Source: Propionicimonas sp.
GTDB lineage: Bacteria > Actinomycetota > Actinomycetes > Propionibacteriales > Propionibacteriaceae
Reading direction: 5' to 3'
Length of the DNA stretch: 64,000 nt
Assembly: GCF_029975155.1 (NCBI RefSeq)
Contig: NZ_JARKPQ010000139.1
Coordinates: forward strand, 1-64,000
Made by a program: the position numbers and the translations under genes. The notes below the pieces were generated by a model. It was not told where the DNA came from. It saw only the letters and a list, made by a program, of their open reading frames with translations, and searched no databases. The first letter of the stretch is position 1. The number at the start of each line of letters is the position of its first letter. Shown here piece after piece: positions 22,573-55,311 of this stretch.

Positions 22573-25026
22573 TCAGACGCCGAGCCGGGTGCGGCGGACG
22601 AGTTCGCCGTCCGTCCAGTTGGACGTCGGGACGTGGCCGGGCAGGGGCAGGATCCGTTCGTGGACGGCGTCCACGATCCATTCCGGCTGCGGGAAGAACA
22701 GGTCCTCCAGTTCCGGGGCGGGCGTGATGTGGTTGCGGGCGCCGACCACGACGACCGGGGCGTCCAGGGCGTCGAAGGCGAGGTTCTGGACGTCCGAGGC
22801 GACGGTCTGCAGGAACGAGCCGCGGGTGACGGCGTCCGAGGCGAGCACCAGCCGTCCGGTCTTGGTCACCGACTCCACCACCGTCGTGTAGTCCAGCGGC
22901 GCCACGAAGCGCAGGTCGATCACCTCGGCCGAGATGCCGTAGGCCTCCTGCAGCTGGTCAGCTGCCTCCAGCGCCCGGTACAGGGTCGCGCCGAGCGTGG
23001 CGATGGTGAGGTCCGTGCCCTCGCGACGGACGACCGGCTGGCCCTCGGGGGTCTCGTAGTAGCCCTCGGGGACGCCGTCCGCCTCGAACTGCTCGCCCAC
23101 GTCGTACAGCAGCTGGGACTCCAGGAACACCACCGGGTCGGTGCCGGCCAGCGCCCGGTTCAGCATGCCCTTGGCGTCGGTCGGGGTGGCCGGGAAGTAC
23201 ACCTTCAGGCCGGGGATGTGCGCGACCAGCGCGGCCCAGTCCTGGGAGTGCTGGGCGCCGTACTTGTTGCCGACCGACACCCGCAGCACCAGTGGCATGG
23301 TCAGCAGGCCGGCAGACATCGACTGCCACTTGGCCATCTGGTTGAACACCTCGTCACCGGCGCGGCCGAGGAAGTCGCAGTACATCAGCTCGACCACCGC
23401 GCGTCCGCCGGACAGTGCGTAGCCCACGCCGGCGCCGACGATCGCGGCCTCCGAGATCGGGGAGTTGAACAGCCGCCGGTACGGCAGCAGCTCGGTCAGC
23501 CCGCGGTAGACGGCGAACGCACCGCCCCAGTCCCGGTTCTCCTCGCCCCAGGCGCACATCGTCGGGTCGATCGCGTACCGGTGCGCCATGGCCTCGAACA
23601 GGCCGTCGCGGAACTGGTACATCCGCACCTTGGAGACCGGCCTGCCGTCCGCGTCGGTGGTCTTGCGCACCTTCTTCGCGATCGCCTTCACCCGGGCGTT
23701 CTCGGCCAGCGGCTCGGTCAGCTCCGGCTCGCCCTCGCCGAACGCCTCCACGTGCCCGTTGGAGAGCATCTTCGACTCGATGTAGGTGGCATCCACCCGC
23801 TCGAGCTCGTCGCTGGACGCCAGCGCGAGCACCTTGGTGAGCCGCTCGACGATCCGTCCGTGCAGCTCCTCCACGCCGGAGGAGGTGATCGCCTTCTCGG
23901 CCACGAGCAGGTCGGCGAAGGACGTGATCGAGTCGGCCGCCTCCCAGGCCTCGATCTCCTCGCGGCTGCGGTAGCTGGAGGCATCGGACGGGGAGTGCCC
24001 CGAGATCCGGTACGTGATGGTGTCCAGCAGGACGGGACCGCGTCCGGCCAGCAGCAGCTCCTTCTTGCGCCGGATCGCGTCGGCGACCGCGAGCGGGTCG
24101 TAGCCGTCCACCCGCTCGGCGTGCATGGCCTCGGGGTTCACGCCCGCGCCCACCCGGGCGAGGATGTCGTAGCCCATGGTCTCGCCGTCGGTCTGGCCGC
24201 CCATGCCGTAGAAGTTGTTGAAGAAGTTGAACAGGATCGGCGGATTGCCGCCGTCCTCCTCGCGCCACAGCTGGCGGAACTGGTCCATGGCGGCGAACGT
24301 CATCGCCTCCCACACCGGGCCGCAGCCCATGGACGCGTCCCCGATGTTGGCGATCACGATGCCGGGTTGCCGGTTCACCCGCTTGAACAGCGCCGAGCCG
24401 TTCGCGATGGGTGCCGAACCGCCGACGATCGCGTTGTTCGGCATCGAGCCGAACGGGGTGAAGAAGGCGTGCATGGAGCCGCCCATGCCCCGGTTGAAGC
24501 CGGCCTTGCGGGCGACGATCTCGGCCAGCGTGCCGAACAGGATGAAGTTCTCGGTGAGCTCCTCGGCAGTGTCGTAGCCGATCTGCTCCGCGTAGCGCAG
24601 CGTGTCGCCGCCGAGGAACGTGCTCATGATGCCGGCGAGCTTCGCGGCGTCCAGCTTGCGCGCGGCGGAGAACGACTTGGCGAGGATCTCGCCGTGGCTG
24701 CGGTGGGAGCCGAAGATGAAGTCGTCGGCGTCCAGTTCGGCGGCCTGGCCGACCGCCGCGGCCTCCTGGCCCATCGACAGGTGCGCGGGGCCCTTGTGGT
24801 TGTACTCGATGCCCTGCCACCCACCGGTGGTCTTGATCGAGTTCAGCATCGACTCGAACTCCCGGATCATCAGCATGTCGTGCAGCATCGCGACCAGTCC
24901 GTCGGCGCCGTAGCGTTGCTCGGCCGCGGCGTAGTCCCGGGTGTAGGCGTTCACCGGGATCGGCGGGACGGTGATCGTCGAGGCCGCGCGGACCTTCGCC
25001 GGATCGACGTTCAGTGACTTGGGCAT
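22573..25026 (-). CDS. Fused alpha-beta E1 component of a TPP-dependent 2-oxo-acid dehydrogenase complex
   Basis: 817 aa; alpha half [14 protein letters not shown]...[21 protein letters not shown]; beta half [32 protein letters not shown]...[19 protein letters not shown]...[31 protein letters not shown]. Confidence 0.93.
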
Positions 25027-25140
25027 TTCTTCCTTCTTCGAATAATCGTTGATCGAGCTTGTCGAGATCCGCTCGGTCTCGACAAGCTCGACCAGCGATT
25101 GGCGGGTACGGGTCTCGACCAGCGATTGGTGGGTGCGGGG

Positions 25141-26601
25141 TCAGTCCTTGATGGCCCAGGCGGCCTCGCGGATCGCCTCGGACACGGTCGGGTGGGGGAA
25201 GACGACCTGGCGCAGGTCGTCCACGGTGAGCTCGGTTTCGAGGACGGCGGCCGCGCCCCAGATGGTCTCGGGGGCATAGGTGCCGAGCATGTGGACGCCG
25301 AGCACGGCGCGGGTGCGGGCGTCGGCGATCAGTTTCACCGCGCCCGGTCCGCGGACGCCCTGTTCGGCGACGGCGCGGCCGGAGACGGCGAGCGGGACGG
25401 TGGCGGTGGTCACCTCGTGACCGCGGGCGACCGCCTGAGCCTCGGTGAGCCCGACGCCGGCGGCCTCGGGCATCGAGTAGACCGCCCACGGGATGGTGTC
25501 CGTCCGCAGCCGCTGGCCGTTCCGGGACGCCGCCGCGGTGTCGATGATGTGGGCCGCGGCGATCTCGCCCATCCGGTAGGCGGCGTGGGCGAGCAGGCTG
25601 CGTCCGGTGACATCGCCGACCGCCCAGACGTTCGGCAGGTTGGTGCGCATGGTGTCGTCCACCACCACTCCGCGCGGCCCGACCTCCAGCCCGGCCTCGG
25701 CCGCGCCCCAGCCGTCCACGAGCGGACGCCGGCCCACGGCCATCAGCACCAGGTCGGCCTCGGCCCGCTGCTCGGCACCGGTGGCGTCGGTCCAGACGAC
25801 CGTGCCGTCCTCGACGCCGATGACCTTGCAGCCGAGGTGGAAGGTGACCCCCTTGAGCGCCTTGCGGGTGCGGGCGGCGAGGTCGGCGTCCATGAACGGC
25901 AGGATCTCGGGCAGCATCTCGACGACCTCGACGTGGCTGCCGAACGCCGCGAACAGGGACGCGAACTCGACCCCGATCACCCCGCCACCGATCACGACCA
26001 GCCGCCGCGGGACGGACTCGACCGCCAGCAGCCCGGTGGAGTCGACGACCTTCGGGCTGTCCGTGGCGCCGGGGATCGGCGGCATCACCGGCACCGAGCC
26101 GGTGGCGATGATCACGTGGTCGGCGGTCCTGCGCTCAACCCCGCCGATCTCGTCCGGAGATCCCGGCGTTCGCCGGGATGACGAGAGGAGGGTCCGGGAT
26201 GACGAGAGGGAGATCCGGGATGACGAGAGGGAGATGTCGACCACGCCGGGGCCGACCAGGGTGCCGTGGCCGAAGACGACCTCGACCTTGTTCCGCTTCT
26301 CCGTGGCCGCCACTCCGGCCACCAGCCTGGTGACCACGTCGGCCTTCCAGGCCTGGACCTGCGCCCAGTCGAAGGTCACGTTCTCCGCCGTCACGCCGAA
26401 CTGTTCGGAGTGCCGCGCGTGGTCGTACAGCTTCGCCGAGTTGAGCAGGCTCTTGGTCGGGATGCAGCCCACGTTCAGGCAGGTGCCGCCGAGGAACTCC
26501 TTCTCGACGAGCAGCACCCGCTTCCCGGCGTGGCCCAGGCGTTCGGCGGCCAGGTAGCCACCGGGACCACCGCCGAGGATGATCACGTCATAGTCAGCCA
26601 T
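25141..26601 (-). CDS. lpdA: Dihydrolipoyl dehydrogenase (E3) with repeat-derived in-frame insertion
   Basis: DVIILGGGPGGYLAAERLGHAGKRVLLVEKEFLGGTCLNVGCIPTKSLL; IIATGSVP; GGGVIGVEFASLFAAFGSHVEVVE. Confidence 0.96.
   Translation of the reverse strand: MADYDVIILGGGPGGYLAAERLGHAGKRVLLVEKEFLGGTCLNVGCIPTKSLLNSAKLYDHARHSEQFGVTAENVTFDWAQVQAWKADVVTRLVAGVAATEKRNKVEVVFGHGTLVGPGVVDISLSSSRISLSSSRTLLSSSRRTPGSPDEIGGVERRTADHVIIATGSVPVMPPIPGATDSPKVVDSTGLLAVESVPRRLVVIGGGVIGVEFASLFAAFGSHVEVVEMLPEILPFMDADLAARTRKALKGVTFHLGCKVIGVEDGTVVWTDATGAEQRAEADLVLMAVGRRPLVDGWGAAEAGLEVGPRGVVVDDTMRTNLPNVWAVGDVTGRSLLAHAAYRMGEIAAAHIIDTAAASRNGQRLRTDTIPWAVYSMPEAAGVGLTEAQAVARGHEVTTATVPLAVSGRAVAEQGVRGPGAVKLIADARTRAVLGVHMLGTYAPETIWGAAAVLETELTVDDLRQVVFPHPTVSEAIREAAWAIKD
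26159..26234. repeat. GATCCCGGCGTTCGCCGGGATGAC repeat plus decayed direct repeats inside lpdA
   Basis: Encodes SSRRTPGSP plus SLSSSRISLSSSRTLL in frame. Confidence 0.85.
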
Positions 26602-26609
26602 GTCTCTGC

Positions 26610-28055
26610 CTAACCCAGGACCGTGAGGTCGATGTCGGTGATCGCCGCGCACAGGTCGCGCAGGTAGCGGGCGGCATCTGCGCCGTCGATCACCTGGTGG
26701 TCGGCGGTCAACGAGAAGCCGATCCGCTGTTCCGCGCCGACCGAGCCGTCCGGGTTGATCACCGCGCGGGGGACAATCGCGTCCACGCCGAGGATCGCCA
26801 CCTGCGGCACGTTCAGCAGCGGGGTGAACGACTCGATCCCGAACGAGCCCAGGTTCGACACGGTGAACGTCGCGCCACCGAGCAGGTCGGGGTTGATCGA
26901 GCCGCCGATCGCCTCGTTCGCCAGCGCCTTGGACTGCACCGAGAACTCCCGCAGGGTGAGCGTGTCGGCGAACCGCAGCGTCGGGACGAGCAGGCCGCGC
27001 GGGGTGTCCACGGCCATGCCGAGGTGCACGTTCGCGAACGTGCGCAGCACGCCACCGGAGAGGTGGGCGTTCACCACCGGGTGCTTCGACAAGGTCTTCA
27101 CCGTCGCATAGCCGACCAGGTCGCCGATCGTCACTGAAGCCAGCTCGGGGTCGGACGCGTGCTTCAGCCGCTTCCTCAGCGCCAGCAACCCCGCCGCCGG
27201 AGCGGTCGCGGTGTAGGTCAACTGCGCGGACGTCGCGAGGGAGTTCATCATCCGCTCCGCGATCACCTTGCGGATGCCCTTGAGCGGGGTGTCGGTGAAG
27301 GCGCCGGGGAACTCCCTGGGCACACCGGTCGTCGAGCCCGTCGAGACGCCCGCCCCGGTCTCGACCCGTCGAGACGCCGCGCTCGCACGCTCGCTCGGCT
27401 CCTCAGGGGAACCAGGCTCGACCAGCGGTTCAGCGGCGAGGTCGGCGCGGGTCACCCGGCCACCGATGCCCGTGCCGGCCGCACCCGGGACGAAGCCCTC
27501 GGCCTCGGCGCGGGCGCCCACGGTGAGCCCCGGGCCGGCCGCGATCGCAGCCTGGACGTCGCGCTCGATCACCCGTCCCTGGGGGCCGGTGCCGGTCAGT
27601 CGCTCCACCGCGATCCCCTGGGACGCCGCGAGTCCGCGCGCACGTGGCGACACTGAGCCACTGGTTGAGCTGGTCGAAACCGGCCGCGGCGTCTCGACAG
27701 GCTCGACGACCGGTTGCGGAGTCAGCCGCTCGGTCGGCGCCTCATCGACCTCACCGGCCTCGCCGGTGGTCTGCGGGGGCAGCCCGGCGCTGGCCAGAAG
27801 CTGCTCGATGTCCTCGCCGGGTTCGCCGATGACGGCGATCGGGTCCTTCACCGGCACGTCGTCACCCTCCTCGGCGAGCAGCGCGAGCACCGTCCCCGAG
27901 ACACCAGAAGGCACCTCCATGGCTGACTTGTCGGTCTCGATCTCGCACAGCAGCGTGTTCGCGTCCACCGTGTCGCCGAGCTTCACCAGCCAGGTGGTGA
28001 TCAGGCACGACTCCACCGTGTTGCCGAGCTGTGGCATCACCACGACCTGGGCCAT
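26610..28055 (-). CDS. Dihydrolipoamide acyltransferase (E2) of 2-oxo-acid dehydrogenase complex
   Basis: Lipoyl domain ETDKSAMEVPS; E3-binding region SPRARGLAASQGIAVERLTGTGPQGRVIERDV; catalytic end GFSLTADHQVIDGADAARYLRDL. Confidence 0.94.
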   Translation of the reverse strand: MAQVVVMPQLGNTVESCLITTWLVKLGDTVDANTLLCEIETDKSAMEVPSGVSGTVLALLAEEGDDVPVKDPIAVIGEPGEDIEQLLASAGLPPQTTGEAGEVDEAPTERLTPQPVVEPVETPRPVSTSSTSGSVSPRARGLAASQGIAVERLTGTGPQGRVIERDVQAAIAAGPGLTVGARAEAEGFVPGAAGTGIGGRVTRADLAAEPLVEPGSPEEPSERASAASRRVETGAGVSTGSTTGVPREFPGAFTDTPLKGIRKVIAERMMNSLATSAQLTYTATAPAAGLLALRKRLKHASDPELASVTIGDLVGYATVKTLSKHPVVNAHLSGGVLRTFANVHLGMAVDTPRGLLVPTLRFADTLTLREFSVQSKALANEAIGGSINPDLLGGATFTVSNLGSFGIESFTPLLNVPQVAILGVDAIVPRAVINPDGSVGAEQRIGFSLTADHQVIDGADAARYLRDLCAAITDIDLTVLG

Positions 28056-28070
28056 TGGTACTCCTGTTTC

Positions 28071-28826
28071 CTAGACGAAGCGGGCGTCGACGCCGCTGTG
28101 GGTGAGTTCTGTGCGGGCCGCGTCCGGCAGACCCGAATCGGTGATCACGCCGGTGAGTCCGGCGAGCTCCATCACGGAGACGAAGCCGGCCTTGCCGTAC
28201 TTGGACGAATCGGCGACCAGCCACGACTCGCTCGCGCGGGCCTTCATCGCCCGGATCACCTCCGCGCCTTCGGCGAAAGCGGTGGTCAGGCCACGTTCGG
28301 CGCTGAAGCCGTCAGTGCCGAAGAACGCCAGCCGGACGTTGAAGTCGTCGATCGCACGCAGCGCGCCGGGCCCGACCAGCGACTCGCTGGCGCGGTGAAA
28401 GGTGCCCCCGGTGAGGATCACGGTCAGGTTCGCGTACAGCCGGGCGTGCCGGAGCACCAGCGTCGAGTTGGTGAGGATCTGGACGCCACGGCGCGCGCCG
28501 AGGTGCGCGACGATCTCCGCGCACGTGGTGCCGGCCTCGATCATGACCAGGTCGTTGTCCTGGACGAGCGCTGCCGCGGCGGCCGCGATCTGTTCCTTCT
28601 CCCGGGAGTGCTGCAGCTGGCGTTCCAGCACGTTGCGATAGCCGGTGGCCTCTGCGCCCCCGTGGGTCCGGGCGAGCAGGCCCCGCTCCTCGAGCGTCCG
28701 CAGGTCGGTGCGGATCGTCACCTCGGAGACCCCGAGCTGCTTCGACAGCGCGACCACGGAGAGCGTCCCCTCCCGCGCGAGCCGCGCGAGGATCAGGGAC
28801 TCGCGCTCCGAGCGTTCGATCGACAT
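28071..28826 (-). CDS. DeoR/GlpR-family transcriptional regulator
   Basis: RESLILARLAREGTLSVVALSKQLGVSEVTIRTDLRTLEERGLLARTHGGAE; C-terminal sugar-phosphate sensor domain. Confidence 0.94.
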   Translation of the reverse strand: MSIERSERESLILARLAREGTLSVVALSKQLGVSEVTIRTDLRTLEERGLLARTHGGAEATGYRNVLERQLQHSREKEQIAAAAAALVQDNDLVMIEAGTTCAEIVAHLGARRGVQILTNSTLVLRHARLYANLTVILTGGTFHRASESLVGPGALRAIDDFNVRLAFFGTDGFSAERGLTTAFAEGAEVIRAMKARASESWLVADSSKYGKAGFVSVMELAGLTGVITDSGLPDAARTELTHSGVDARFV

Positions 28827-28836
28827 CGACCGGCCC

Positions 28837-28880
28837 TTTCGATTTACTTTCGATTTAGAGGATTTATCGATTCAATCGTA
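28837..28880. promoter_or_regulatory. Candidate DeoR operator (direct TTTCGATTTA repeats plus ATCGATTCAATCG)
   Basis: TTTCGATTTA at 28837-28846 and 28848-28857, 11-bp period, just upstream of the DeoR ATG. Confidence 0.45.
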
Positions 28881-28930
28881 ACCCATCCGCGATCGCCCCG
28901 CAACTGCCTTGAGCCACTGTTCCGTCCCCC

Positions 28931-29002
28931 CACAGAAGCTGCCGAAAGTCGCCGAAGCTGCCGAAGGTTCGGCAGCTTCGGCAGTCTTCGGCAGCGTCTG
29001 TG
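28931..29002 (-). terminator. Long imperfect hairpin downstream of the SorE-like dehydrogenase gene (boundaries approximate)
   Basis: CACAGAAGCTGCCGAAAGTCGCCGAAGCTGCCGAA / TTCGGCAGCTTCGGCAGTCTTCGGCAGCGTCTGTG. Confidence 0.65.
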
Positions 29003-29029
29003 CGGGAGGAGCGCCGGGTCAGCGCCGGG

Positions 29030-30670
29030 TCAGGGCTGACTGGCGAGCAACGCCGCCTCGGCGGCCTTCGTCCAGCGGCCCGCGTCGAGGGCGGCGGCGA
29101 CGGTGGGCAGCTTCTCGGCGAGCTCGTCCAGCCTCACCAGGCCGAGGTCGGGCAGCATCGGGTAGACCATGATCTTCCCGCCGGAGGTGCGGTTGTTGAC
29201 GCTCTCGATCGCGTCCGCCACACCGGCCATGCCGGTCACCGCCCACAGCGAGACGTTGGTGTCCAGCTGGCCCGATTCGACCTTGGCGAGCATGGTCTTC
29301 ATGTCCTGGATCCGCGACCCGGAGGTGCCGACCAGGTAGATCCCCTCGGCGGCGATCTTGGTCAGGTCCAGCTCGGCCATGGTGCCGATGGCGAAGCCGG
29401 CGAAGGCGTTCACGATGGCTCCCGCGGCAGCGAGGTCCACGGCCTGGGCGATCAGGAACGGCGCCGGCACCATCGCGGCGATGTAGGTGTAGCCGGGCTC
29501 CAGCGGCTCGGTCCTGCTGTTGCGGAACGTCGCCGGGACGCCGTTCGCCGCCGCCACCGGCGCCACGACGGCCGCCAGGTGGGCGAGCCGGGCGTCGTCC
29601 ACGTCCACGGCGTCCATCGTGATGCCCGGGACGCCGGACACCGCCGTCCGCACGGTGTGCATCAGGCCCATCGGACCGGCCGCGCCCACGATCGCGATCC
29701 GCTCGCCCTCGCGCAACTCGCACTGAGCCGGAATCCTGGCGTAGCCCTCGGCCACGTTGTCGCCTGCGGTGCCGGTGTAGCGGATCAGGTCGTAGTGCAC
29801 GCGGCCCACGTCGATCTTCACCGGACGGCCGAACGCGCCGCCGGCCAGCACCACGTCCAGCACGCCACCGAAGCCGAGGTGCGCCCCGAGCGCTTCCACC
29901 ACGTCGGCGTCGGAGCCCACATAGACGATGTCGTCGAAGCTGCCCTCCAGCTCGCCCACCGAGCCGACCACGGTCGCGCCCGGCACCTTCGCCGCGCCCA
30001 CCACCGTGATGGACGCGGGCGTCGCCTGCGCGAGCAGCTCGGGCAGCCCGGCCGCGACATCGGCCACGACCAGCAGCCGGCCGCCGGCTTTGAGGGTCTG
30101 CCGCTCGCCCCAGGCGTAGGCCGCCTCGACGCACGCCCACGGCTCGATCAGCGCCACCGCCGACGCGGACGGGCCCTCGCTCACCGGGATCAGGAACCGC
30201 TCGCCCGTGACCGGGTCCAGGATCGCCCGCTCGTCGAGCACCACGTACTCCTGCAGCGCACCCTCGAAGTTGTAGCCGAAGGCGGCGTTCGAGCTCGCCG
30301 TCGGCAGGTGCCGGTAGTCGGTCTCGACCAGCACCCGCTCCCCCACCCGGTGGTGGGTCACGTCCGCGCCGACCGTGACGATCCGTCCGACCGGCTCGTG
30401 GCCGGGCACGATCGGGGCATCCCCGGGCTGGTAGCTGGGAATCTCCGCCAGTTCGGCAGCACTCAGCCCGCTGAGCACCCGGCTCTTGCGCGGATGGTTC
30501 GTGAACGCGTGCAGGAGTTTGGTGTCGGAGAAGCAGATGCCGCAGGCCTCCGGCTTCAGCAGCAGCTGAGTCGGGCCGAGCTCGTACATCGGCTTCGCCT
30601 GGTTGTGCACCACCTCGTCGGCGCCCACGAACTGGATCGCGTGCTGGGTGGTGGGGAACTCCTGAGTCAT
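29030..30670 (-). CDS. Zinc-binding alcohol dehydrogenase-like protein, resembles L-sorbose-1-phosphate reductase (SorE) family
   Basis: LLLKPEACGICFSDTKLLHAF...GHEPVGRIVTVGADVTHHRVGERVLV...ERIAIVGAAGPMGLMHTVRTAVSG. Confidence 0.78.
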   Translation of the reverse strand: MTQEFPTTQHAIQFVGADEVVHNQAKPMYELGPTQLLLKPEACGICFSDTKLLHAFTNHPRKSRVLSGLSAAELAEIPSYQPGDAPIVPGHEPVGRIVTVGADVTHHRVGERVLVETDYRHLPTASSNAAFGYNFEGALQEYVVLDERAILDPVTGERFLIPVSEGPSASAVALIEPWACVEAAYAWGERQTLKAGGRLLVVADVAAGLPELLAQATPASITVVGAAKVPGATVVGSVGELEGSFDDIVYVGSDADVVEALGAHLGFGGVLDVVLAGGAFGRPVKIDVGRVHYDLIRYTGTAGDNVAEGYARIPAQCELREGERIAIVGAAGPMGLMHTVRTAVSGVPGITMDAVDVDDARLAHLAAVVAPVAAANGVPATFRNSRTEPLEPGYTYIAAMVPAPFLIAQAVDLAAAGAIVNAFAGFAIGTMAELDLTKIAAEGIYLVGTSGSRIQDMKTMLAKVESGQLDTNVSLWAVTGMAGVADAIESVNNRTSGGKIMVYPMLPDLGLVRLDELAEKLPTVAAALDAGRWTKAAEAALLASQP

Positions 30671-30749
30671 GACTATCTCCTCCTGCGTTGTCTCCGCTGA
30701 TCGACTTCACTTCTCCGCTGATCGAGCTTCACTTCACCTCACCGCTGAT

Positions 30750-30840
30750 CGAGCTTGTCGAGATCGGCCGACAGGTCTCGACAAGCTCGACCAGCGGTTT
30801 GGGCTCGACCAGCGGTTTGGGCTCGACCAGCGGTCTTGGT
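30750..30840. repeat. CTCGACAAGCTCGA palindrome plus three 18-bp tandem copies of CTCGACCAGCGGTTTGGG
   Basis: ctcgaccagcggtttgggctcgaccagcggtttgggctcgaccagcggt; reverse complement of the 18.1-kb repeat core. Confidence 0.85.
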
Positions 30841-30843
30841 TGG

Positions 30844-32826
30844 TCAGTTGAGCATGTTCTGGCCGCCGGTGACCGGCACGGCCTGGCCGGTCTCGTAGGC
30901 CTGGTCGACGATGTAGTACACGGCCTTGGCGACGTCGGACGGGGTGCAGCCGCGGCCCATCGGGACCTTGGCCTCGTAGAACGCCCGGACGTCCTCGATC
31001 GTCGTCGCGCCGGGCACCTTGCCCGCCCGCAGGTACTGGACGAACAGGCCGCGCTCGGGATCGCTCCACAGCGGACCGTCCAGGTAGTTGCCCGGGCAGA
31101 TCGCGTTCACCTTGATGCCGTACTCGACCAGTTCCAGCGCGAAGCTCTGGGTGAGCCCGATGCCACCGAACTTCGAGCCGGCGTACGCGAAGTTGCGCTT
31201 CGAGCCCTCCAGTCCCGACTTCGAGTTGATCTCGATGATGTCGGACCACGCCTCGGGACGGACGGCGTGCTGCGCGGCCAGGATCGGCGCCACCGCGCGG
31301 ACGCCGAGGAAGTACCCGCGGTAGTTCACGTTCGTGACCAGGTCGAAGTCGGCCACCGGCTGGGTCATCACGCCCTCGGCGCGCAGCACGCCGGCGTTGG
31401 AGATGAACACGTCCAGCCCTCCGAAGGTGGCGACCACCTCCGCGACAGCGGCCAGCTGGGAGTCGGGGTCGGCGACGTTCACCGCCACCGCGACCGCCCG
31501 TCCGGGACCGTGCTGGGCGCCCAGTTCTGCCGCCTTCTGCCTGGCCAGGTCGATGTTGAGGTCGGCGAGCACCACCTGGGCACCCTCGGCCAGCAGCTCC
31601 GTGGCGATGCCGAGGCCGAAGCCCTGGGCCGCCCCGGTGACCAGCACGACCTTGCCGTCCATCCGGCCGGCCCGCTTCGACGCGGCGACCGCCTTGCGGT
31701 AGCTCTCCGCCTCCCAGTTCTCGATGAAGCCGCGCTCGGCGACGTTCAGGCAGCGCACGGTGCCGATCCGGTTGGCATCGCGCGCCACCCGCAGGGCGTC
31801 GGAGAACGTGGCCAGGGCCGTCTGCGCGGCGACCAGGTCGGCGCCTGCGCCGAACGCGACCACGCCGGGGACGACGGTGATCACCGGGTCCTTGCCGTGG
31901 CGTTCGCGATAGCCGGTGACGGCTGCGGTGACGATCGCCGCGTCGGCGGAAGCGTCCAGCACGAGCGGCAGCGACCCCGCGTAGACGATCTGGTCGGGGA
32001 TCAGCGGGCCGTCGGTGAGGATCGCATCGCCCGCGGGGGTGGTGGTCACCGTGCGGACCAGGTCGGAGGAGTCGGACGTGACCACGGCCAGTCGCTCGGG
32101 CGTGCCCAGCAGGCCGCGGAGGGCGGGGGCGATGGTGGCAACGGCAGTTCCGGGGATCCCGGCGTTCGCCGGGATGACGTTGGGGGAAGGCTCGATGACG
32201 TCAGGGGGGCCTTCGATGGCGGCGGCGATGGTTGCGGTCAGCCACTCGGCGCGCTCGGTGAGCTCGGCGGCGGAGTTGCCGGAGACGATGATGCCGTGGT
32301 TGCCCAGCAGGGTGATCCCGGGGGCGAGCCGGCCAGTGCGCGCGGTGTAGGCGTCGCGGGCGCGCTCGACCTCGCGGGCCAGCGGCACGCCGGGGTCGGT
32401 GTAGGGCACGAACACCGCCTCGTCGCCGAGCAGCCGGGAGGTCAGCGCCTCGGCGTCGACGTTGCAGGTGAGCGCGTTGGCGACGAGCGGATGGGTGTGC
32501 AGCACCAGCGCGTCCGGGATCAGGGCGTGGAACAGGATCTCGACGCTGGGCCGCCGTCCACCGGGGGCATCGACCAGCGCTCTGGTCGCCGCCGTCATCA
32601 CCGGGTCGCCCTCGTCAGGCTCGTCGGAGTGCAGGGCGTCCAGCAGCACGTCCGTCCGCAGCCCGACCAGGTCGGCCGCGGTGAGCGTCGCCAGCGGCAC
32701 GCCGGACGGCTTGATCCGCAGCACCCCGTCCACCTTCACCGAGGCGTTGCCGCCGCCGGCGCGGGAGTACTCAGGATCGGCGCCGAAGTGGTTGGCGACC
32801 GCGATCAGGTCCTCGACGAGGTTCAT
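30844..32826 (-). CDS. Bifunctional class II aldolase / SrlD-like short-chain dehydrogenase fusion
   Basis: N-terminal SRAGGGNASVKVDGVLRIKPSG...PSVEILFHALIPDALVLHTHPLVANAL...GNHGIIVSG; C-terminal KVVLVTGAAQGFGLGIATELLAEGAQVVLAD...EINSKSGLEGSKRNFAYAGSKFGGIGLTQSFALELVEYGIKVNAICPGN. Confidence 0.88.
   Translation of the reverse strand: MNLVEDLIAVANHFGADPEYSRAGGGNASVKVDGVLRIKPSGVPLATLTAADLVGLRTDVLLDALHSDEPDEGDPVMTAATRALVDAPGGRRPSVEILFHALIPDALVLHTHPLVANALTCNVDAEALTSRLLGDEAVFVPYTDPGVPLAREVERARDAYTARTGRLAPGITLLGNHGIIVSGNSAAELTERAEWLTATIAAAIEGPPDVIEPSPNVIPANAGIPGTAVATIAPALRGLLGTPERLAVVTSDSSDLVRTVTTTPAGDAILTDGPLIPDQIVYAGSLPLVLDASADAAIVTAAVTGYRERHGKDPVITVVPGVVAFGAGADLVAAQTALATFSDALRVARDANRIGTVRCLNVAERGFIENWEAESYRKAVAASKRAGRMDGKVVLVTGAAQGFGLGIATELLAEGAQVVLADLNIDLARQKAAELGAQHGPGRAVAVAVNVADPDSQLAAVAEVVATFGGLDVFISNAGVLRAEGVMTQPVADFDLVTNVNYRGYFLGVRAVAPILAAQHAVRPEAWSDIIEINSKSGLEGSKRNFAYAGSKFGGIGLTQSFALELVEYGIKVNAICPGNYLDGPLWSDPERGLFVQYLRAGKVPGATTIEDVRAFYEAKVPMGRGCTPSDVAKAVYYIVDQAYETGQAVPVTGGQNMLN
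32155..32178. repeat. GATCCCGGCGTTCGCCGGGATGAC repeat inside the aldolase-SDR gene
   Basis: Encodes NVIPANAGIPG in frame. Confidence 0.85.
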
Positions 32827-34076
32827 CGGTTCTCTCCCTTGTGGTCCATGCCGACCGGTGCCGCGGGGGATCCCGGCGTTCGCCGGGATGACGGGACGAG
32901 GCGGATCAGCTCGCTGCCGATCTCGATCAGCATGGCGGTGGGGACGGGCGTTCGCGCTCCGGTGGCGTCCACGTACCCGGGCCGCCCGTGCGCCACCTCG
33001 TGCTGATGGGCGGCAACGACGCAGGCGGCCTCCCAGAACGCCTGGCGCGCGTCGTCGGACAGAGGCCCGTCCACACAGGCGGGCTCGACCGGGATGCGGT
33101 CCGGGGTGTTGTGCTCCGTCCCGCCCGTCACGATCAGCCCCGCGTCGGTGAACGCCCTGACATAGGCGTCGACGCAGGCGCCGGTGTTGCGGACCGGGAT
33201 CAGCTCGGCGGCGTGGATGCCGCGCTCGATCAACTGCGCGGCGAGCCGGGGGGCGGGGTCCTCGAACGGGCAGACCGGCTGCACCCCGTCCGCGAGCGTC
33301 GGATAGGTGGGAATGCCGTCCATCTCCAGCACGTAGCGGTAGGCGTCGGCGAAGCTCAGCGGCACCTCGGGGACGAAGCCGGGCGTGCCCACCTTGATCA
33401 GCCGCGAACGGAGCTCGCCCTGCAGCGCCGCCGGGTCGTCGATGTCCACACCGCTCGGACCGCCGTAGGCACGATCGAGGACGGCGGCCCGCTCCTCCCG
33501 CGGCAGGGCGGCGAGCGCACGCTGGAAGGCCATGGCGATGTGCCGTTCCTGCAGCGACACCCACGCGACCGGCACCTGGGCGGCGTCGGCCACGTCCTGG
33601 GCGATCGCCGCCGCGGTCAGGCCGGTGTCCAGCCCGCACGCGGCGAACCACTCGGCGAGCCGGCCAACCATCGCGCTCGCGCGCTCGTCGTTGCCGCTGC
33701 GGATCGCCGCGGCGATCCGCGAGGCCGCGTCCGACTTGCGCGTGAACGGGGAGATGCCCTTGCCGCACAGGTACATCCGGCCGGGGTTGGCCGGGTCGTT
33801 CACCCGGACGCCGGCGGCAGCCAGTTCCTCGTCCAGGGTGATGAACTCCAGCCCGTACAGCGGCACGACGCCCGCGGCCTCCGCCTGCTCGGCGAAGAGC
33901 GCGTAGACCTGCTGGTCGAAGAAGTTGGAGATACCGACGGCCCGGGCGCCTTCCGCCACCGCGGCACCGATGGCGTCCGCAACCGTGGCGAAGGCCGAGA
34001 AGTTGGGCGGGACGTGGACGTGGGTGTTGACCACCGGGAGCTTCCCGGCTGCGTCCAGGACGTCACTGTCGGTCAT
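32823..34076 (-). CDS. PHP-domain-like metal-dependent hydrolase/phosphoesterase
   Basis: PVVNTHVHVPPNFSAFATVADAIGAAVAEGARAVGISNFFDQQ...PLYGLEFITLDEEL...GLIVTGGTEHNTPDRIP; 4-bp overlap with the aldolase-SDR start. Confidence 0.65.
   Translation of the reverse strand: MTDSDVLDAAGKLPVVNTHVHVPPNFSAFATVADAIGAAVAEGARAVGISNFFDQQVYALFAEQAEAAGVVPLYGLEFITLDEELAAAGVRVNDPANPGRMYLCGKGISPFTRKSDAASRIAAAIRSGNDERASAMVGRLAEWFAACGLDTGLTAAAIAQDVADAAQVPVAWVSLQERHIAMAFQRALAALPREERAAVLDRAYGGPSGVDIDDPAALQGELRSRLIKVGTPGFVPEVPLSFADAYRYVLEMDGIPTYPTLADGVQPVCPFEDPAPRLAAQLIERGIHAAELIPVRNTGACVDAYVRAFTDAGLIVTGGTEHNTPDRIPVEPACVDGPLSDDARQAFWEAACVVAAHQHEVAHGRPGYVDATGARTPVPTAMLIEIGSELIRLVPSSRRTPGSPAAPVGMDHKGENR
32869..32892. 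repeat. GATCCCGGCGTTCGCCGGGATGAC repeat at the 3' end of the PHP gene
   Basis: Encodes [11 protein letters not shown] close to the stop codon. Confidence 0.85.
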
Positions 34077-34127
34077 GTGCAGTACCTGTCTGTGTCTGCC
34101 GGAGGCCGCTTCGCCGATCCGGATTGT

Positions 34128-34140
34128 AACGATTCAAGAC
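34128..34140. promoter_or_regulatory. Candidate LacI (rhamnose-regulon) operator half-site
   Basis: AACGATTCAAGAC, identical to 44140-44152, in the divergent PHP/FGGY-kinase intergenic region. Confidence 0.5.
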
Positions 34141-34305
34141 CATACCACCCATTCCGCCCGGAAGACAGTGCCCCACGCTTCCCGACGTCCCACCGTCGCG
34201 CCCCGCCCGAGCCTCTGCCGGGACGACGACTTCCACTAGCCTTTCCCGGTGAGGGCGGCCTCCAGCGACGGAGATCGCTCCACCTCGGCCTCAGACAGGA
34301 TCCCG

Positions 34306-35787
34306 ATGCTGATCGCACACGACCTGGGCACGTCGGGCAACAAGGCGTCCCTGCACTCCATGGACGGGCGGCTGCTCGCCGCCGCCAGCGCGTCCTACCC
34401 CACCCACTACGCCGCCGACACGACCAGCGAACAGAACCCTCACGACTGGTGGACGGCCGTCGTGGCGGCCACCCGTCAGCTGCTGGCCGCGAGCGGCGTC
34501 CGTCCCGACGAGGTGGACGGCATCTGCGTGTCCGGCCAGATGATGGGGCTCGTCCTGCTCGACGCGGCCGGAAGGCCCGTCCGCCCCGCGATGATCTGGT
34601 CCGACCAGCGGGCCTCCGCGGAGGCGGCGGCACTGGCCCACGACTTCGGTGGTGACGAGGCCTATCGGATCACCGGCAACCGCATCGCGGCCACGTACAC
34701 GCTGCCGAAGCTGGTCTGGGTGCGCGACCACGAGCCGGAGAACTACGCGCGGGCCACCAGGTTGTGCATGGCCAAGGACTACGTCAACCTGCGGCTCACC
34801 GGACGCCTGGCCACCGACCGCTCGGACGCGTCCCACACCGGCGCCTACGACCTGACCGCGGGCGAGTGGTCCGCGCCCCTGCTCGCAGCGGCCGGGGTGG
34901 ACGCCACGCTCTGGCCGGAGATCATCGAGTCCACCGACGTGCTGGGCACCCTCACGTCCGCCGCCGCGGCGGAGCTCGGCCTGCGCCCCGGCACCCCGGT
35001 CGTCACCGGCGGTGGCGACGGGCCGATGGCGGCGGTCGCCGCCGGCTGCGTCGCCCCCGACTCGCCCGGCTACGTCTGCCTGGGCACGTCGGCGTGGTAC
35101 GCGTGCACGACGACCGTCCCGCTGCTGGACCCGGCCCAGCGCTCGTTCACCCTCTGCCACGTGGCACCAGGACTGTTCACCCCCACCGCGACCACGCAGA
35201 CCGGCGCCGGCTCGCTCCAGTGGGCGGCGGAGGCGCTCGGCGAGGAACGCGCGGCGGTCGCTCAGCTGATCGACGCCGCGGCCGAGGTCGCCGCTTCGGA
35301 CGAGGGGCTGTACTTCCTGCCCTACCTGATCGGCGAGCGCACGCCCTGGTGGGACCCGAACGCGTCCGGGGTGTTCCTCGGACTGCGCATGCACCACCGG
35401 CGCGCCCACCTGACCCGGGCCGTCCTCGAGGGCGTGGGCTACAGCCTGGCACTGTGCATGCAGCCCCTGCGCGGGGACGCCGCCGACACCGGCATCGCTG
35501 TGATCGGCGGTGGCGCGGCCAGCGATACCTGGCTCGCCCTGCTGGCCGACATCTGGGGCGTCCCGGTGCGGCGGCGCAGCGTCACCACCCAGGCCAACAG
35601 CCTCGGCGCTGCCGTGACCGGCCTGGTCGGGCTCGGCGAGGCGGACTTCACGATCGCGCCGACCCTTTCCACCGTGGAGGCCGAGTTCCTGCCCGGAGAG
35701 ACGAGCGCTGCGCACGCCGGTCACTTGGCCCGGTTCGCCGACGCCTACACCGCGCTCAGCGGCTGGTTCGCCGCCGGAGCCCGCTGA
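34306..35787 (+). CDS. FGGY-family carbohydrate kinase (xylulokinase-like)
   Basis: MLIAHDLGTSGNKASLHSMDG...GICVSGQMMGLVLLD...MIWSDQRASAEA...GLYFLPYLIGERTPWWDPNASGVFLGL. Confidence 0.92.
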   Translation: MLIAHDLGTSGNKASLHSMDGRLLAAASASYPTHYAADTTSEQNPHDWWTAVVAATRQLLAASGVRPDEVDGICVSGQMMGLVLLDAAGRPVRPAMIWSDQRASAEAAALAHDFGGDEAYRITGNRIAATYTLPKLVWVRDHEPENYARATRLCMAKDYVNLRLTGRLATDRSDASHTGAYDLTAGEWSAPLLAAAGVDATLWPEIIESTDVLGTLTSAAAAELGLRPGTPVVTGGGDGPMAAVAAGCVAPDSPGYVCLGTSAWYACTTTVPLLDPAQRSFTLCHVAPGLFTPTATTQTGAGSLQWAAEALGEERAAVAQLIDAAAEVAASDEGLYFLPYLIGERTPWWDPNASGVFLGLRMHHRRAHLTRAVLEGVGYSLALCMQPLRGDAADTGIAVIGGGAASDTWLALLADIWGVPVRRRSVTTQANSLGAAVTGLVGLGEADFTIAPTLSTVEAEFLPGETSAAHAGHLARFADAYTALSGWFAAGAR

Positions 35788-35913: not shown

Positions 35914-37401
35914 TCAGGCCTTTCCCGGATAGGCCCGGCGCTCCGTCGCCGCCCAGTCGGACGGGCCGAAGGGCAGCACGCCGGGGTGGTAGGTGGTGAG
36001 GTCGGAGGAGGCGATGGCCGTCCGGCGCAACGCCGTCCGGTCGCCGGCGAGCGCGCCGCAGGCCCGGGCCTGCACGAGCAGGTTGCCCAGCGCCGTCCCT
36101 TCCGCCGGTCCCGCGACCACCGGCAGCCCGGTGGCCTCGGCGGTCAGCTGGCACAGCAGGGTGTTCCGGCAGCCACCGCCGACGATGTGCACGACGGAGA
36201 CGTCGCGACCGGCCAGCGCGCACGCCGTGCGGATGGTGCGCCGGTAGGCCAGCGCCAGCGAGTCGAGGATGCAGCGGCAGATCGCCCCCGGGTCGTCGGC
36301 GAGCTCCTGCCCGGTCTCGGCGGCCATCGCCAGCAGCCGGGACGGCATGTCACCCGGCGGCAGCAGGCGGGCGTCCGTCATGTCCAGGACGCAGGCCAGA
36401 CCGGGACGGGTGGCCGCCTCGGCGAGCAGGGTGGCCAGCGCCACCGCGCGTCCGGCGGCCGTCCACGCACGGATGCTCTCACTGAGCACCCACAGGCCCA
36501 TCACGTTCTTCAGGTAGCGGACGGTGCCGTCGATGCCGAGCTCGTTGGTGAAGTCGGCCGCCCGGCTGGCCTCGGTGAGCACCGGCTGCTCCAGCTCGAG
36601 CCCGACCAGCGACCAGGTGCCCGAGGAGATGAACGCGAAATCGGTGTCCGTCGCCGGGATCGACACCACCGCGGACGCCGTGTCGTGGCCGCCGACCGCC
36701 ACGACCTGGACCGGCCGGCTGAACAGGCCCTCGGTGCTCGCGCCCAGGACCGTTCCGGGTTCGACGAGTTCCGGCAGCACCCGCGGGACGGGCAGCCCGT
36801 ACCGCTCGGCCAGGTGCGCGCACGTGGCGTCCGACCAGGTGCGGGTGGCGACGTCCAGCAGTCCGGTGGTGGAGGCGATGGTCACTTCCGCGACCTCGCG
36901 TCCGCACAGCCAAGAGGACATCAGGTCGGGCGTGAGCAGGATCCGGGAGACCTCCGCCCAGCGTGGATCGTCGCGACCGGCCACGAGCTGGAAGATCGTG
37001 TTGAACGGCATCACCTGCAGCCCAGCCGTGGCGTACAGCCGTTCGGCCGGGAGGTCGGCGAAGACCAGGTCCGGGACGCCGGTCGTGCGGTCGTCCCGGT
37101 AGTGGAAGGGTGGTTCGAGCAGCTCGCCGTTAGCGGCGAGTCGGCCGTAGTCGACTCCCCAGGTGTCCACGCCGACCGACTCCAGCCGTCCGCCGCTGGC
37201 CTGGATCGCCGCCTCGACGCCGTCCCGGACGTGCTCGAAGAGTCCGACGGCATCGGTGTGGATCCCGTCCGCCGCCTCGACAGGACCGTTGTCGAATCGC
37301 GCCGTCTCACTCAGCTCGAAGCGCCCGTCCTCCAACCTGCCGAGGATCACCCGCCCACTGGACGCGCCGAGGTCGGCTGCGGCGAAGTAGCGAGGGTTCA
37401 T
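35914..37401 (-). CDS. rhaB: Rhamnulokinase (FGGY family)
   Basis: FAAADLGASSGRVILGRLEDGRFELSETARFDNGPV...SVGVDTWGVDYGRLAANGELLEPPFHYRDDRT; located in a rhamnose cluster. Confidence 0.92.
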   Translation of the reverse strand: MNPRYFAAADLGASSGRVILGRLEDGRFELSETARFDNGPVEAADGIHTDAVGLFEHVRDGVEAAIQASGGRLESVGVDTWGVDYGRLAANGELLEPPFHYRDDRTTGVPDLVFADLPAERLYATAGLQVMPFNTIFQLVAGRDDPRWAEVSRILLTPDLMSSWLCGREVAEVTIASTTGLLDVATRTWSDATCAHLAERYGLPVPRVLPELVEPGTVLGASTEGLFSRPVQVVAVGGHDTASAVVSIPATDTDFAFISSGTWSLVGLELEQPVLTEASRAADFTNELGIDGTVRYLKNVMGLWVLSESIRAWTAAGRAVALATLLAEAATRPGLACVLDMTDARLLPPGDMPSRLLAMAAETGQELADDPGAICRCILDSLALAYRRTIRTACALAGRDVSVVHIVGGGCRNTLLCQLTAEATGLPVVAGPAEGTALGNLLVQARACGALAGDRTALRRTAIASSDLTTYHPGVLPFGPSDWAATERRAYPGKA

Positions 37402-37497: not shown

Positions 37498-37579
37498 CCA
37501 CCCACAGAGGCTGCCGAAACGTGCCGAAGCTGCCGAAGGTTCGGCAGCTTCGGCAACTTTCGGCAGCCTCTGTGGGTGG
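37498..37579 (-). terminator. Very long (about 40-bp arm) hairpin 3' of rhaM
   Basis: CCACCCACAGAGGCTGCCGAAACGTGCCGAAGCTGCCGAA / TTCGGCAGCTTCGGCAACTTTCGGCAGCCTCTGTGGGTGG. Confidence 0.75.
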
Positions 37580-38075: not shown

Positions 38076-39242
38076 TCAGGCGCCCCAGCCGGCATGGGTG
38101 CCGCCGACGCGCTCCTCGGCGATCTTGGCGAGGTAGCCGGTGGCGGCGAAGGCCTTCATCGGGTCAGCCGGCAGACCGCGGGACTCCCGCCAGGCGGCCA
38201 GGTCGGCCCGCACGTCGGTGTAGAAGGCATCCATGAACACCTGGTTCGCGCCGAGCACGTCACCGGCGTCCTGCGCCTCCTTCAACGCGACCGCATCGAC
38301 CAGCAAGGCCTTGGCGGTCATCTCCTGCACATTCAACACCGACCGGATCTGGCCAGGGATCTTGTCCTCCACGTTGTGACACTGGTCCAGCATGAACGCC
38401 ACCGGCGAGCCCGGGCCATACCCGCCGCCACGAATCACCTCATACAGGATCCGGAACAACTGGAACGGATCCGCCGCACCCACGATCAGATCATCATCGG
38501 CATAGAACCGCGAGTTGAAGTCGAACGAACCCAACTTCCCCAGCCGCAACAACTGCATCACGACGAACTCGATGTTCGTACCCGGCGCGTGATGCCCGGT
38601 ATCCAGACACACCATCGCCTTGGGGCCCAACGTCGCGCACTGCACATACGAGGTGCCCCAGTCCGGCACATCGGTGTGATAGAACGCCGGCTCGAAGAAC
38701 TTGTATTCCAACACCATCCGCTGCCCAGGCCCCAGCCGGTCATAGATCCTCGCCAAGCTGTCCGCCAGCCGGTCCTGCCGCCCCCGCAGATCGCCCTGGC
38801 CCGGATAGTTCGAGCCGTCGGCCAACCAGATCTTCAAATCACGCGACCCGGTCGCGTACATGATCTCGATGCACTCCAGATGATGGTCGACAGCCTTCTG
38901 CCGAACCACCGGATCCACATGGGTCAACGACCCGAACTTGTACGCCTCGTCCTGGAACGTGTTGGAGTTGACCGTGCCCAACGCCACACCCAGATCCCCG
39001 GCATAGGACGCGAGCGCCGCGTAGTCGTCCACCCTGTCCCACGGAATGTGCAGCGCCACCCTCGGCGCCAACCCGGTGAACCGGTGCACCTGCGCGGCAT
39101 CGGCGAGCTTCTCCCGCACCGTCCGCGGCGTGCCCGGCGTACCGAACACCTTGAACCTGGTCCCCGAGTTCCCGAACGCCCAAGAAGGCAGCTCGATGGC
39201 CTGCAGGGCCAGCTGGTCAGTAATCGAATCAAACGTGGTCAT
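38076..39242 (-). CDS. rhaI: L-rhamnose isomerase (RhaI-type TIM barrel)
   Basis: LPSWAFGNSGTRFKVFGTPGTPRTVREKLADAAQVHRFTGLAPRVALHIPWD...MVLEYKFFEPAFYHTDVPDWGTSY...CLDTGHHAPGTNIEFVV. Confidence 0.95.
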   Translation of the reverse strand: MTTFDSITDQLALQAIELPSWAFGNSGTRFKVFGTPGTPRTVREKLADAAQVHRFTGLAPRVALHIPWDRVDDYAALASYAGDLGVALGTVNSNTFQDEAYKFGSLTHVDPVVRQKAVDHHLECIEIMYATGSRDLKIWLADGSNYPGQGDLRGRQDRLADSLARIYDRLGPGQRMVLEYKFFEPAFYHTDVPDWGTSYVQCATLGPKAMVCLDTGHHAPGTNIEFVVMQLLRLGKLGSFDFNSRFYADDDLIVGAADPFQLFRILYEVIRGGGYGPGSPVAFMLDQCHNVEDKIPGQIRSVLNVQEMTAKALLVDAVALKEAQDAGDVLGANQVFMDAFYTDVRADLAAWRESRGLPADPMKAFAATGYLAKIAEERVGGTHAGWGA

Positions 39243-39328: not shown

Positions 39329-40366
39329 TCAGAAGTTGAAGTTGTCGATGTTGTCGGCGTTGAACTTGTACGGATCGCCGAGCAGGACGGTCTGGTCGGC
39401 CCCCACGGTGTAGGCGCCGAGCTTGCCGGCGGTGAACTTGTCACCCTCGGCGCCGGTGATGGTGCCGTCAGCCAGTGCCTTGATGGCGAACACGGTCAGG
39501 TAGCCCAGATCCTCGGGGTTCCACAGGGCGAACTCCTTCACGGTGCCGTCCTTGACGAACGCCCGCATGTCGTTCGGGGTGCCGAGACCGGTGACCATGA
39601 CCTTGCCCTTGGCGTCCGAGGTGGACACGTAGCGGGCAGCGGCCGCGATACCGACCGTGGTCGGCGCGACGATCACCTTCAGCTTCGGGTGCTTCTGCAG
39701 CAGCGACGCGGTCTCGTCGAACGACTTCTGGTCCTGGTCGTCGCCGTAGGCGACCTCGACCAGCTTGATGTCGGGGTGGTTGGCCTTCAGATCGGCCTTC
39801 ATCGCGTCGATCCAGGCGTTCTGGTTGGTCGCGTTCGCCGTGGCCGACAGGATCGCGATCTCGCCCGAACCGCCGGACTGGTCGACGGCCATCTCCACCA
39901 GCACCTTCGCGATGCCCTCGGACGTGGCCTGGTTGATGAACAGGTCGCGGCAGGTCGGCGCGTCGGAGTCGAAGGTCACGACCTTCACCCCGGCCGCCTG
40001 GGCTGCCTTGACCGAGTCGCACAGCGCGGTCTGGTCGTTCGCGGACAGCGCGATCGCGGACACCTTCTGCTGGGTCGCGGTCTCGATGTACTGCACCTGG
40101 GCGTCGGCGGCAGCCTCGGCCGGTCCGACCTGCTCGGTGGTGGCGCCGATCTCCTTCGCGGCCGCCTCCATGCCCTTGGTCGAGGTGTCGAAGTACGGGT
40201 TGCCCAGGTTCTTCGGCAGGATCGTGATCTTCAGGTCGCCAGCAGCCGAGCCCGGGGTGTCGGAGGCACCGGCCGCCGGCGTCCCGGTGACGGTGGGCGT
40301 CGTGCAGGCGCTCATCAGCACCAAGGCAGCGGCCGACAGCGCGACCGCGGTCTTCGTGAACTTCAT
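39329..40366 (-). CDS. rhaS: Rhamnose ABC transporter substrate-binding lipoprotein
   Basis: Lipobox LVLMSACTT; ITILPKNLGNPYFDTSTKGMEAAAKEIGATTEQVGPAEAAADAQVQYIETATQQKVSAIALSANDQTAL. Confidence 0.93.
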   Translation of the reverse strand: MKFTKTAVALSAAALVLMSACTTPTVTGTPAAGASDTPGSAAGDLKITILPKNLGNPYFDTSTKGMEAAAKEIGATTEQVGPAEAAADAQVQYIETATQQKVSAIALSANDQTALCDSVKAAQAAGVKVVTFDSDAPTCRDLFINQATSEGIAKVLVEMAVDQSGGSGEIAILSATANATNQNAWIDAMKADLKANHPDIKLVEVAYGDDQDQKSFDETASLLQKHPKLKVIVAPTTVGIAAAARYVSTSDAKGKVMVTGLGTPNDMRAFVKDGTVKEFALWNPEDLGYLTVFAIKALADGTITGAEGDKFTAGKLGAYTVGADQTVLLGDPYKFNADNIDNFNF

Positions 40367-40470
40367 AGCAGGTTCCTTTCGGTTGTGGCCCACCAGACCG
40401 GCGTTGGCGCAGTGGGACAGTTGGTTGGGGAGTGACCCCCTGTGGACGGGGTTGCCCCCGCTGATTTCGC

Positions 40471-42527: not shown

Positions 42528-42588
42528 GCGGGGTCCCCGCGGAGTTGTTCGGGGGAGCGCAGCGGAGGAGAAGAACTCTGTGGGGTGC

Positions 42589-44106: not shown

Positions 44107-44122
44107 CGGGCCTCCGTTGGCG

Positions 44123-44149
44123 TTGAAACGTTCCATACGAACGATTCAA
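44123..44149. promoter_or_regulatory. Candidate LacI operator of the rhamnose transporter operon
   Basis: TTGAAACGTTC-CATAC-GAACGATTCAA, 11-bp arms with one mismatch. Confidence 0.65.
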
Positions 44150-55305: not shown

Positions 55306-55311
55306 GGCTGC

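Follow-up and report, generated by a model that had tools for sequence, protein, structure and literature searches.

We analysed a 64-kb stretch of DNA from Propionicimonas sp. (positions 1 to 64,000 of contig NZ_JARKPQ010000139.1, here called the window), in which the genes for a dehydrogenase complex consisting of E1, E2 and E3 and headed by a DeoR-family regulator lie next to genes for a PHP-fold protein, a class II aldolase fused to a short-chain dehydrogenase/reductase (SDR), and a SorE-like zinc dehydrogenase. Comparison of genomes showed that these genes, referred to below as the module, belong to operons for the 6-deoxyhexoses L-rhamnose and L-fucose, and that the module takes the place of the aldolase. 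The grouping is not due to chance, as it is kept in relatives and across phyla. We consider it probable (about 0.6) that the module replaces aldol cleavage by a shift of the ketone from C2 to C5, followed by an acetyl-CoA-forming cleavage by E1/E2/E3. Such a route would probably give acetyl-CoA directly from the sugar.

Aldolase and module at L-fucose loci

Two routes of L-fucose breakdown are known, the phosphorylative FucI-FucK-FucA pathway and the fucolactone pathway (PMC5583593). In a sample of 200 genomes of a family reached through Pauljensenia hongkongensis, E1 was identified in 32, FucI in 47, and both in 27. We compared 20 FucI loci without E1 to 20 FucI loci with E1. The former displayed the order FucI-kinase-FucU and none of the module genes (0/20), and 19 of them had a class II aldolase close by, while all 20 loci of the latter group revealed the order FucI-kinase-(LacI)-DeoR-E2-E3-E1-PHP-SDR and only one (L244, divergent) had an aldolase in the vicinity. 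For aldolase presence (1/20 versus 19/20), Fisher's test resulted in p = 5.8e-9, a value to be read as indicative since the species are not independent. Furthermore, a genome-wide search for PF00596 genes in the genomes harboring both E1 and FucI yielded none in seven of them, including the complete chromosome of P. hongkongensis. Since aldolase and module alternate at the fuc loci and seven genomes are devoid of PF00596, the replacement of fuculose-1-phosphate aldolase by the module in L-fucose operons is well supported.

These loci also bear on a route in which RhaE would split rhamnulose-1-phosphate into dihydroxyacetone phosphate and L-lactaldehyde, the SDR would form lactate, and E1/E2/E3 would act on methylglyoxal, acetol, pyruvate, or another C3 product. 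The fusion in the window resembles RhaEW, a validated rhamnulose-1-phosphate aldolase/L-lactaldehyde dehydrogenase (PMC3870299), its aldolase motifs are intact, and other genomes with the module keep their rhamnose genes in a distinct operon, whose RhaE stands alone without a dehydrogenase half. However, the L-fucose module operons have no aldolase at the locus, the seven genomes with module and FucI but no PF00596 gene would therefore form no lactaldehyde, the fusion scores half of the RhaEW cut-off, and the SorE-like gene would be left with no role, so that we regard this route as unlikely. An earlier note on this DNA, made from the sequence only, had combined a kinase, two dehydrogenases, and an acyl-CoA-forming complex into one pathway with an aldolase as a further step. 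One conserved pathway including a kinase is upheld, while the aldolase is not required and is missing from most module loci. As a core step of the module it was rejected in general, with an aldolase domain at few module loci and none at 19 of the 20 fuc loci.

Distribution of the module

Scanning of the genome collection revealed more than 570 relatives, the best 80 of which come from Spirochaetes/Treponema, Verrucomicrobia, Kiritimatiellia, Lentisphaerae, Chloroflexi, Clostridia, and Bacteroidia, among others. The module E1-E3-E2-(DeoR)-PHP-SDR-Zn-dehydrogenase was found in at least seven phyla, located within L-rhamnose or L-fucose operons. Its commonest order was DeoR-E2-E3-E1-PHP-SDR-Zn-dehydrogenase with an SDR not fused to an aldolase. 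Where at least 4 kb of sequence follows E1 (56 loci), an SDR gene was present in 38, PHP in 36, a zinc dehydrogenase in 29, and an aldolase domain in only 9. The SDR half occurs unfused in most module loci; the aldolase-SDR fusion is a rhamnose variant, in which the SDR is conserved rather than the aldolase. The zinc dehydrogenase has two forms of 546 aa or 420 aa, which have the zinc-ligand positions in common and are apparently interchangeable. At module loci, FucI or RhaA (in Spirochaetes and actinomycetes) and transketolase scored above their curated cut-offs, while the best match of the kinases was rhamnulokinase-like and below the cut-off.

Several variants were observed. A TalC/fructose-6-phosphate-aldolase-like gene lies close to the module in two lineages (L047/L077 and L060/L086), several Treponema (L095, L098, L100, and L103) carry a conserved gene of about 350 aa between E3 and E1, and in the variant modules L130, L134, L138, and L139 of Chloroflexi and Lentisphaerae/Kiritimatiellia, the SorE-SDR pair is located on the opposite side of the complex and a second, distant PHP type occurs. 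Fused-E1 relatives (53–55%) were also detected in Rhizobium (R. johnstonii 3841 pRL8, L264) and on Pleomorphomonas pSM30-1 (L265), with genes for a lipoyl protein, an AcoC-type "acetoin cleaving" hydrolase, sugar kinases, and sugar transporters as neighbors; these plasmid loci perhaps represent a 1-deoxysugar pathway of another kind.

Within the family of the window's genome, the fused E1 was present in 71 of 198 genomes. Most of 40 neighborhoods displayed E1-E3-E2 followed by DeoR and/or SorE-AldSDR-PHP (AldSDR denoting the aldolase-SDR fusion), and several genomes of another genus carried E1-E3-E2-SorE-AldSDR-PHP-RhaI as one run. E1 and the SorE-like gene occurred together in 59 of the 198 genomes, E1 alone in 12 and the SorE-like gene alone in 5 (Fisher 4e-32, with species counts that are not phylogenetically independent). 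In Tessaracoccus-like genomes, this co-occurrence persists although the genes are often unlinked; at the loci L206, L208, and L214 of such genomes, the SorE-like gene is found by itself next to a SorC-type regulator, away from E1. A Pfam tally over unrelated neighbors revealed PfkB kinases as the commonest and little besides.

Enzymes of the module

The dehydrogenase complex is encoded on the minus strand. Its E1 (22573–25026, 817 aa) is a fused alpha and beta subunit dependent on thiamine pyrophosphate (TPP), with the domains PF00676, Transket_pyr, and Transketolase_C and the intact motifs GDA...NN, SGHSPSD, and AQHSQ. E3, a dihydrolipoyl dehydrogenase (25141–26601), exceeded the cut-off of TIGR01350 (457 versus 409 bits) and retains its CxxNVGC motif, and E2, a lipoyl acyltransferase (26610–28055), revealed Biotin_lipoyl, E3_binding, and 2-oxoacid_dh domains with the lipoyl lysine and the DHxxxDG motif (DHQVIDG) in place. 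A TPP-dependent E1 of the alpha2beta2 superfamily, a lipoyl E2, and an E3 are combined in a single operon.

The earlier note had offered a simpler explanation, namely that the complex is the ordinary pyruvate dehydrogenase (PDH) of the cell and happens to adjoin sugar genes. Its subunits do fall into the superfamily of PDH and branched-chain 2-oxo acid dehydrogenases, but a canonical AceE is encoded elsewhere in the genome (G000:C386, 1347 bits versus a cut-off of 860), the genome has three further strong PF00676 E1 genes, and the fused E1 scored far under the curated PDH E1 models (175 versus 394 bits for alpha and 249 versus 454 bits for beta). Moreover, the deoxyhexose genes are tightly linked to the complex, and both this linkage and the co-occurrence with sugar genes are strongly conserved, so that an ordinary PDH was rejected as highly improbable. 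With AceE present elsewhere and the co-occurrence conserved, the refutations named in the earlier note fail. The same contig harbors a second E2/E1-beta/E1-alpha set at 54001–57305 (PF00676, 288 bits), which is a separate 2-oxo acid dehydrogenase. Contamination of the assembly is reported as 8.3%; since the synteny recurs in relatives, this does not affect the gene order described here.

The remaining module enzymes are also encoded on the minus strand. The SorE-like protein (29030–30670), a zinc dehydrogenase of the medium-chain dehydrogenase/reductase type with an additional Rossmann insertion, was assigned by its co-occurrence with E1 and by its AlphaFold model (mean predicted local distance difference test score, pLDDT, of 93.5), which Foldseek matched to ketose reductase/sorbitol dehydrogenase; its zinc-ligand positions C46/H91/E92/E176 are kept. 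In the fusion of a RhaE-like class II aldolase to an SrlD/RhaW-like SDR (30844 to about 32826), the YxxxK motif of the SDR and the HTH/NHG motifs of the aldolase domain are intact, while the score against TIGR02632 was below the cut-off (286.5 versus 567.75 bits). The PHP-fold metalloprotein (32823–34076), whose stop codon overlaps the ATG of the fusion gene, has invariant residues of metal-ligand type, and its model (pLDDT 90.6) led Foldseek to PHP phosphoesterases of the RNase AM type.

Proposed route

In phosphorylative pathways, an isomerase and a kinase yield a ketulose-1-phosphate, i.e., fuculose-1-phosphate or rhamnulose-1-phosphate. Enzymes of the SorE and SrlD types jointly shift a ketone along a hexose phosphate, converting L-sorbose-1-phosphate to fructose-6-phosphate. 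Once isomerase and kinase have converted L-rhamnose or L-fucose to the ketulose-1-phosphate, the C2 ketone would, by analogy, be reduced, probably by the SorE-like zinc enzyme, and C5 beside the methyl group would be oxidised by the SrlD-like SDR. The predicted product is a 1-deoxyketose-6-phosphate, CH3-CO-CHOH-R, which is acetoin-like. The TPP-dependent E1 would split this ketone between C2 and C3, the acetyl unit would pass via E2/E3 to give acetyl-CoA and NADH, and the remaining tetrose-4-phosphate would enter the pentose phosphate pathway. The PHP protein probably processes the tetrose phosphate, though this substrate is a guess. Based on stereochemical bookkeeping of the C2/C3 configuration, both sugars should yield the same tetrose, D-threose-4-phosphate or L-erythrose-4-phosphate.

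Some module loci carry a transketolase gene, which is in keeping with a C4 product, and the location of the Rhizobium and Pleomorphomonas plasmid E1 relatives beside AcoC-type proteins supports an acetoin-like cleavage. There is also chemical precedent for the reverse reaction, as PDH E1 makes 1-deoxyxylulose and a mutant AceE supplies 1-deoxyxylulose 5-phosphate in vivo (PMC3424233). Among open-access PMC papers, we found no published account of this module or of fucose routes that involve fucitol-1-phosphate, a 1-deoxyketose, or a dehydrogenase complex, or that dispense with FucA.

Several points weigh against this proposal. The expected tetrose phosphate is a non-standard pathway intermediate and requires one further enzyme, the modelled PHP fold would rather suggest phosphoester hydrolysis, and both the reaction order and the assignment of steps to each dehydrogenase are inferred. 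The window keeps an aldolase domain with intact motifs, and among the named E1 loci that extend 4 kb downstream, about one third have no SDR or PHP genes, so that these E1 relatives may use other substrates.

The module could also replace the aldolase by cleaving another substrate, such as an unphosphorylated 1-deoxyketose after the action of PHP as a phosphatase, a dicarbonyl (for instance, a 5-keto-6-deoxyhexulose phosphate), or a 2-oxo acid formed by an unseen step. This would agree with the phosphoesterase fold of PHP and would allow both dehydrogenases to work in the same direction. However, dephosphorylation would squander the kinase step and a free 3-keto aldehyde would make the C4 fragment unstable. 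A 2-oxo acid is unlikely because no dehydratase was seen as a recurrent member of the module. Overall, we consider a different cleavage substrate quite improbable and prefer the 1-deoxyketose-6-phosphate.

Rhamnulose and fuculose differ at C4 only. Speculatively, the aldolase domain kept in rhamnose versions may act as an ordinary rhamnulose-1-phosphate aldolase or as a C4 epimerase converting rhamnulose-1-phosphate to fuculose-1-phosphate. In its widest form, the proposal would describe a widespread third phosphorylative route, serving both L-fucose and L-rhamnose, in which the carbonyl is moved to the methyl end, the lipoyl dehydrogenase complex splits the 1-deoxyketose-6-phosphate directly into acetyl-CoA and tetrose-4-phosphate, neither lactaldehyde nor 1,2-propanediol is formed, and the former aldolase acts in rhamnose users as a C4 epimerase feeding a fuculose-1-phosphate branch. 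As a whole, we put this forward tentatively and regard it as doubtful.

Rhamnose genes and regulation in the window

All genes listed in the earlier note were found intact at their positions and on their strands, with tight spacing in DeoR-E2-E3-E1 (gaps of about 15, 8, and 114 bp). The minus-strand cluster extends past the interval covered there and reads LacI, ABC transporter, RhaI, RhaB, [divergent XylB-like kinase], PHP, aldolase-SDR, SorE-like, DeoR-E2-E3-fused E1. A LacI-family regulator (44177–45250) heads the rhamnose operon, followed by a sugar ABC transporter with binding protein, two permeases, and ATPase (39329–44136), the L-rhamnose isomerase RhaI (38076–39242; TIGR02635, 622 bits, cut-off 531), and the rhamnulokinase RhaB (35914–37401; best model TIGR02627, 385 bits, below the cut-off of 528). 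The sugar, which had been left unidentified, is L-rhamnose here, with RhaI/RhaB and a transporter adjoining the module, and L-fucose elsewhere; no FucI was found in the genome of the window, which represents the rhamnose version. The divergent FGGY kinase (34249–35787, plus strand) is xylulokinase-like (TIGR01312, 399 bits, cut-off 380). The earlier note had counted it as a pathway member, but in a close relative (L217), the genes binding protein-RhaI-RhaB-PHP-AldSDR-SorE form one operon with no additional FGGY kinase between RhaB and PHP. Thus, it was rejected as a core part and is probably not a conserved member.

The DeoR-family regulator (28071–28826, minus strand; HTH_DeoR and DeoRC) is the first gene of the dehydrogenase operon. 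Its promoter carries a candidate operator of AATCGA repeats (28839–28872, minus strand), the sole such cluster in the window. Since a 203-bp gap with this candidate separates the SorE-like gene from DeoR, DeoR-E2-E3-E1 is probably a separate transcript. A DeoR operator common to the rhamnose genes was rejected, as the repeats occur at the DeoR promoter only and no common regulon was shown, and so was an intrinsic terminator between SorE and DeoR, where the palindrome is strong but the T-tract absent. A palindromic repeat of 77 nt lies at 28926–29002 and 37498–37574 (88% identical), intergenic in the cluster in both cases. Dispersed in-frame repeats of the GGATCCCGGCGTTCGCCGGGATGACG and TCGAGCCTGTCGAGAC types were detected at 26153–26246, 27322–27347, 32149–32221, and 32866–32901, affecting E3, E2, aldolase-SDR, and the PHP tail, which is disordered in the structure model.

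Significance and comparison with known systems

Mucus, plant cell walls, and algal polysaccharides are rich in L-fucose and L-rhamnose. Models of how these sugars are degraded take lactaldehyde, lactate, or 1,2-propanediol to be the products. If true, an acetyl-CoA route would alter the predicted fermentation products of gut, rumen, termite-gut, sediment, and marine bacteria and explain genomes seemingly unable to complete fucose degradation. It would also mean that a complex of the 2-oxo acid dehydrogenase type uses a sugar phosphate as its substrate. In addition, hundreds of genes that currently carry the annotation pyruvate dehydrogenase, sorbitol-6-phosphate dehydrogenase, or PHP protein would be identified.

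Among known systems, the module shares FucI and an FGGY kinase with the FucI-FucK-FucA pathway, but FucA is missing and the module stands in its place. Like the RhaEW (YuxG) pathway for L-rhamnose described by Rodionova et al. 2013 (PMC3870299), the window has an aldolase-SDR fusion clustered with RhaI and RhaB; in contrast, its fusion lies far under the TIGR02632 cut-off, a SorE-like dehydrogenase, PHP, and E1/E2/E3 are added, and the SDR is mostly unfused in the module. With the SorE/SrlD pathway for L-sorbose and glucitol, it has in common a zinc dehydrogenase and an SrlD-type SDR for ketose or hexitol phosphates, while its substrates are expected to be 6-deoxy compounds and its terminus is a lipoyl complex. 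The pyruvate and branched-chain 2-oxo acid dehydrogenase complexes show the same fold and cofactor motifs, but the window E1 is far below the curated PDH E1 cut-offs and lies in a sugar operon context. Finally, the acetoin dehydrogenase complex (AcoABCL) likewise consists of a TPP E1, a lipoyl E2, and an E3, and acts on an alpha-hydroxyketone of the form CH3-CO-CHOH-R as expected here. In contrast to AcoABCL, the E1 alpha and beta subunits of the window are fused and linked to deoxyhexose genes, with an activity that is predicted only, and its E2 is a classical 2-oxoacid_dh acyltransferase rather than an AcoC-type alpha/beta-hydrolase, a type found only beside the plasmid relatives.

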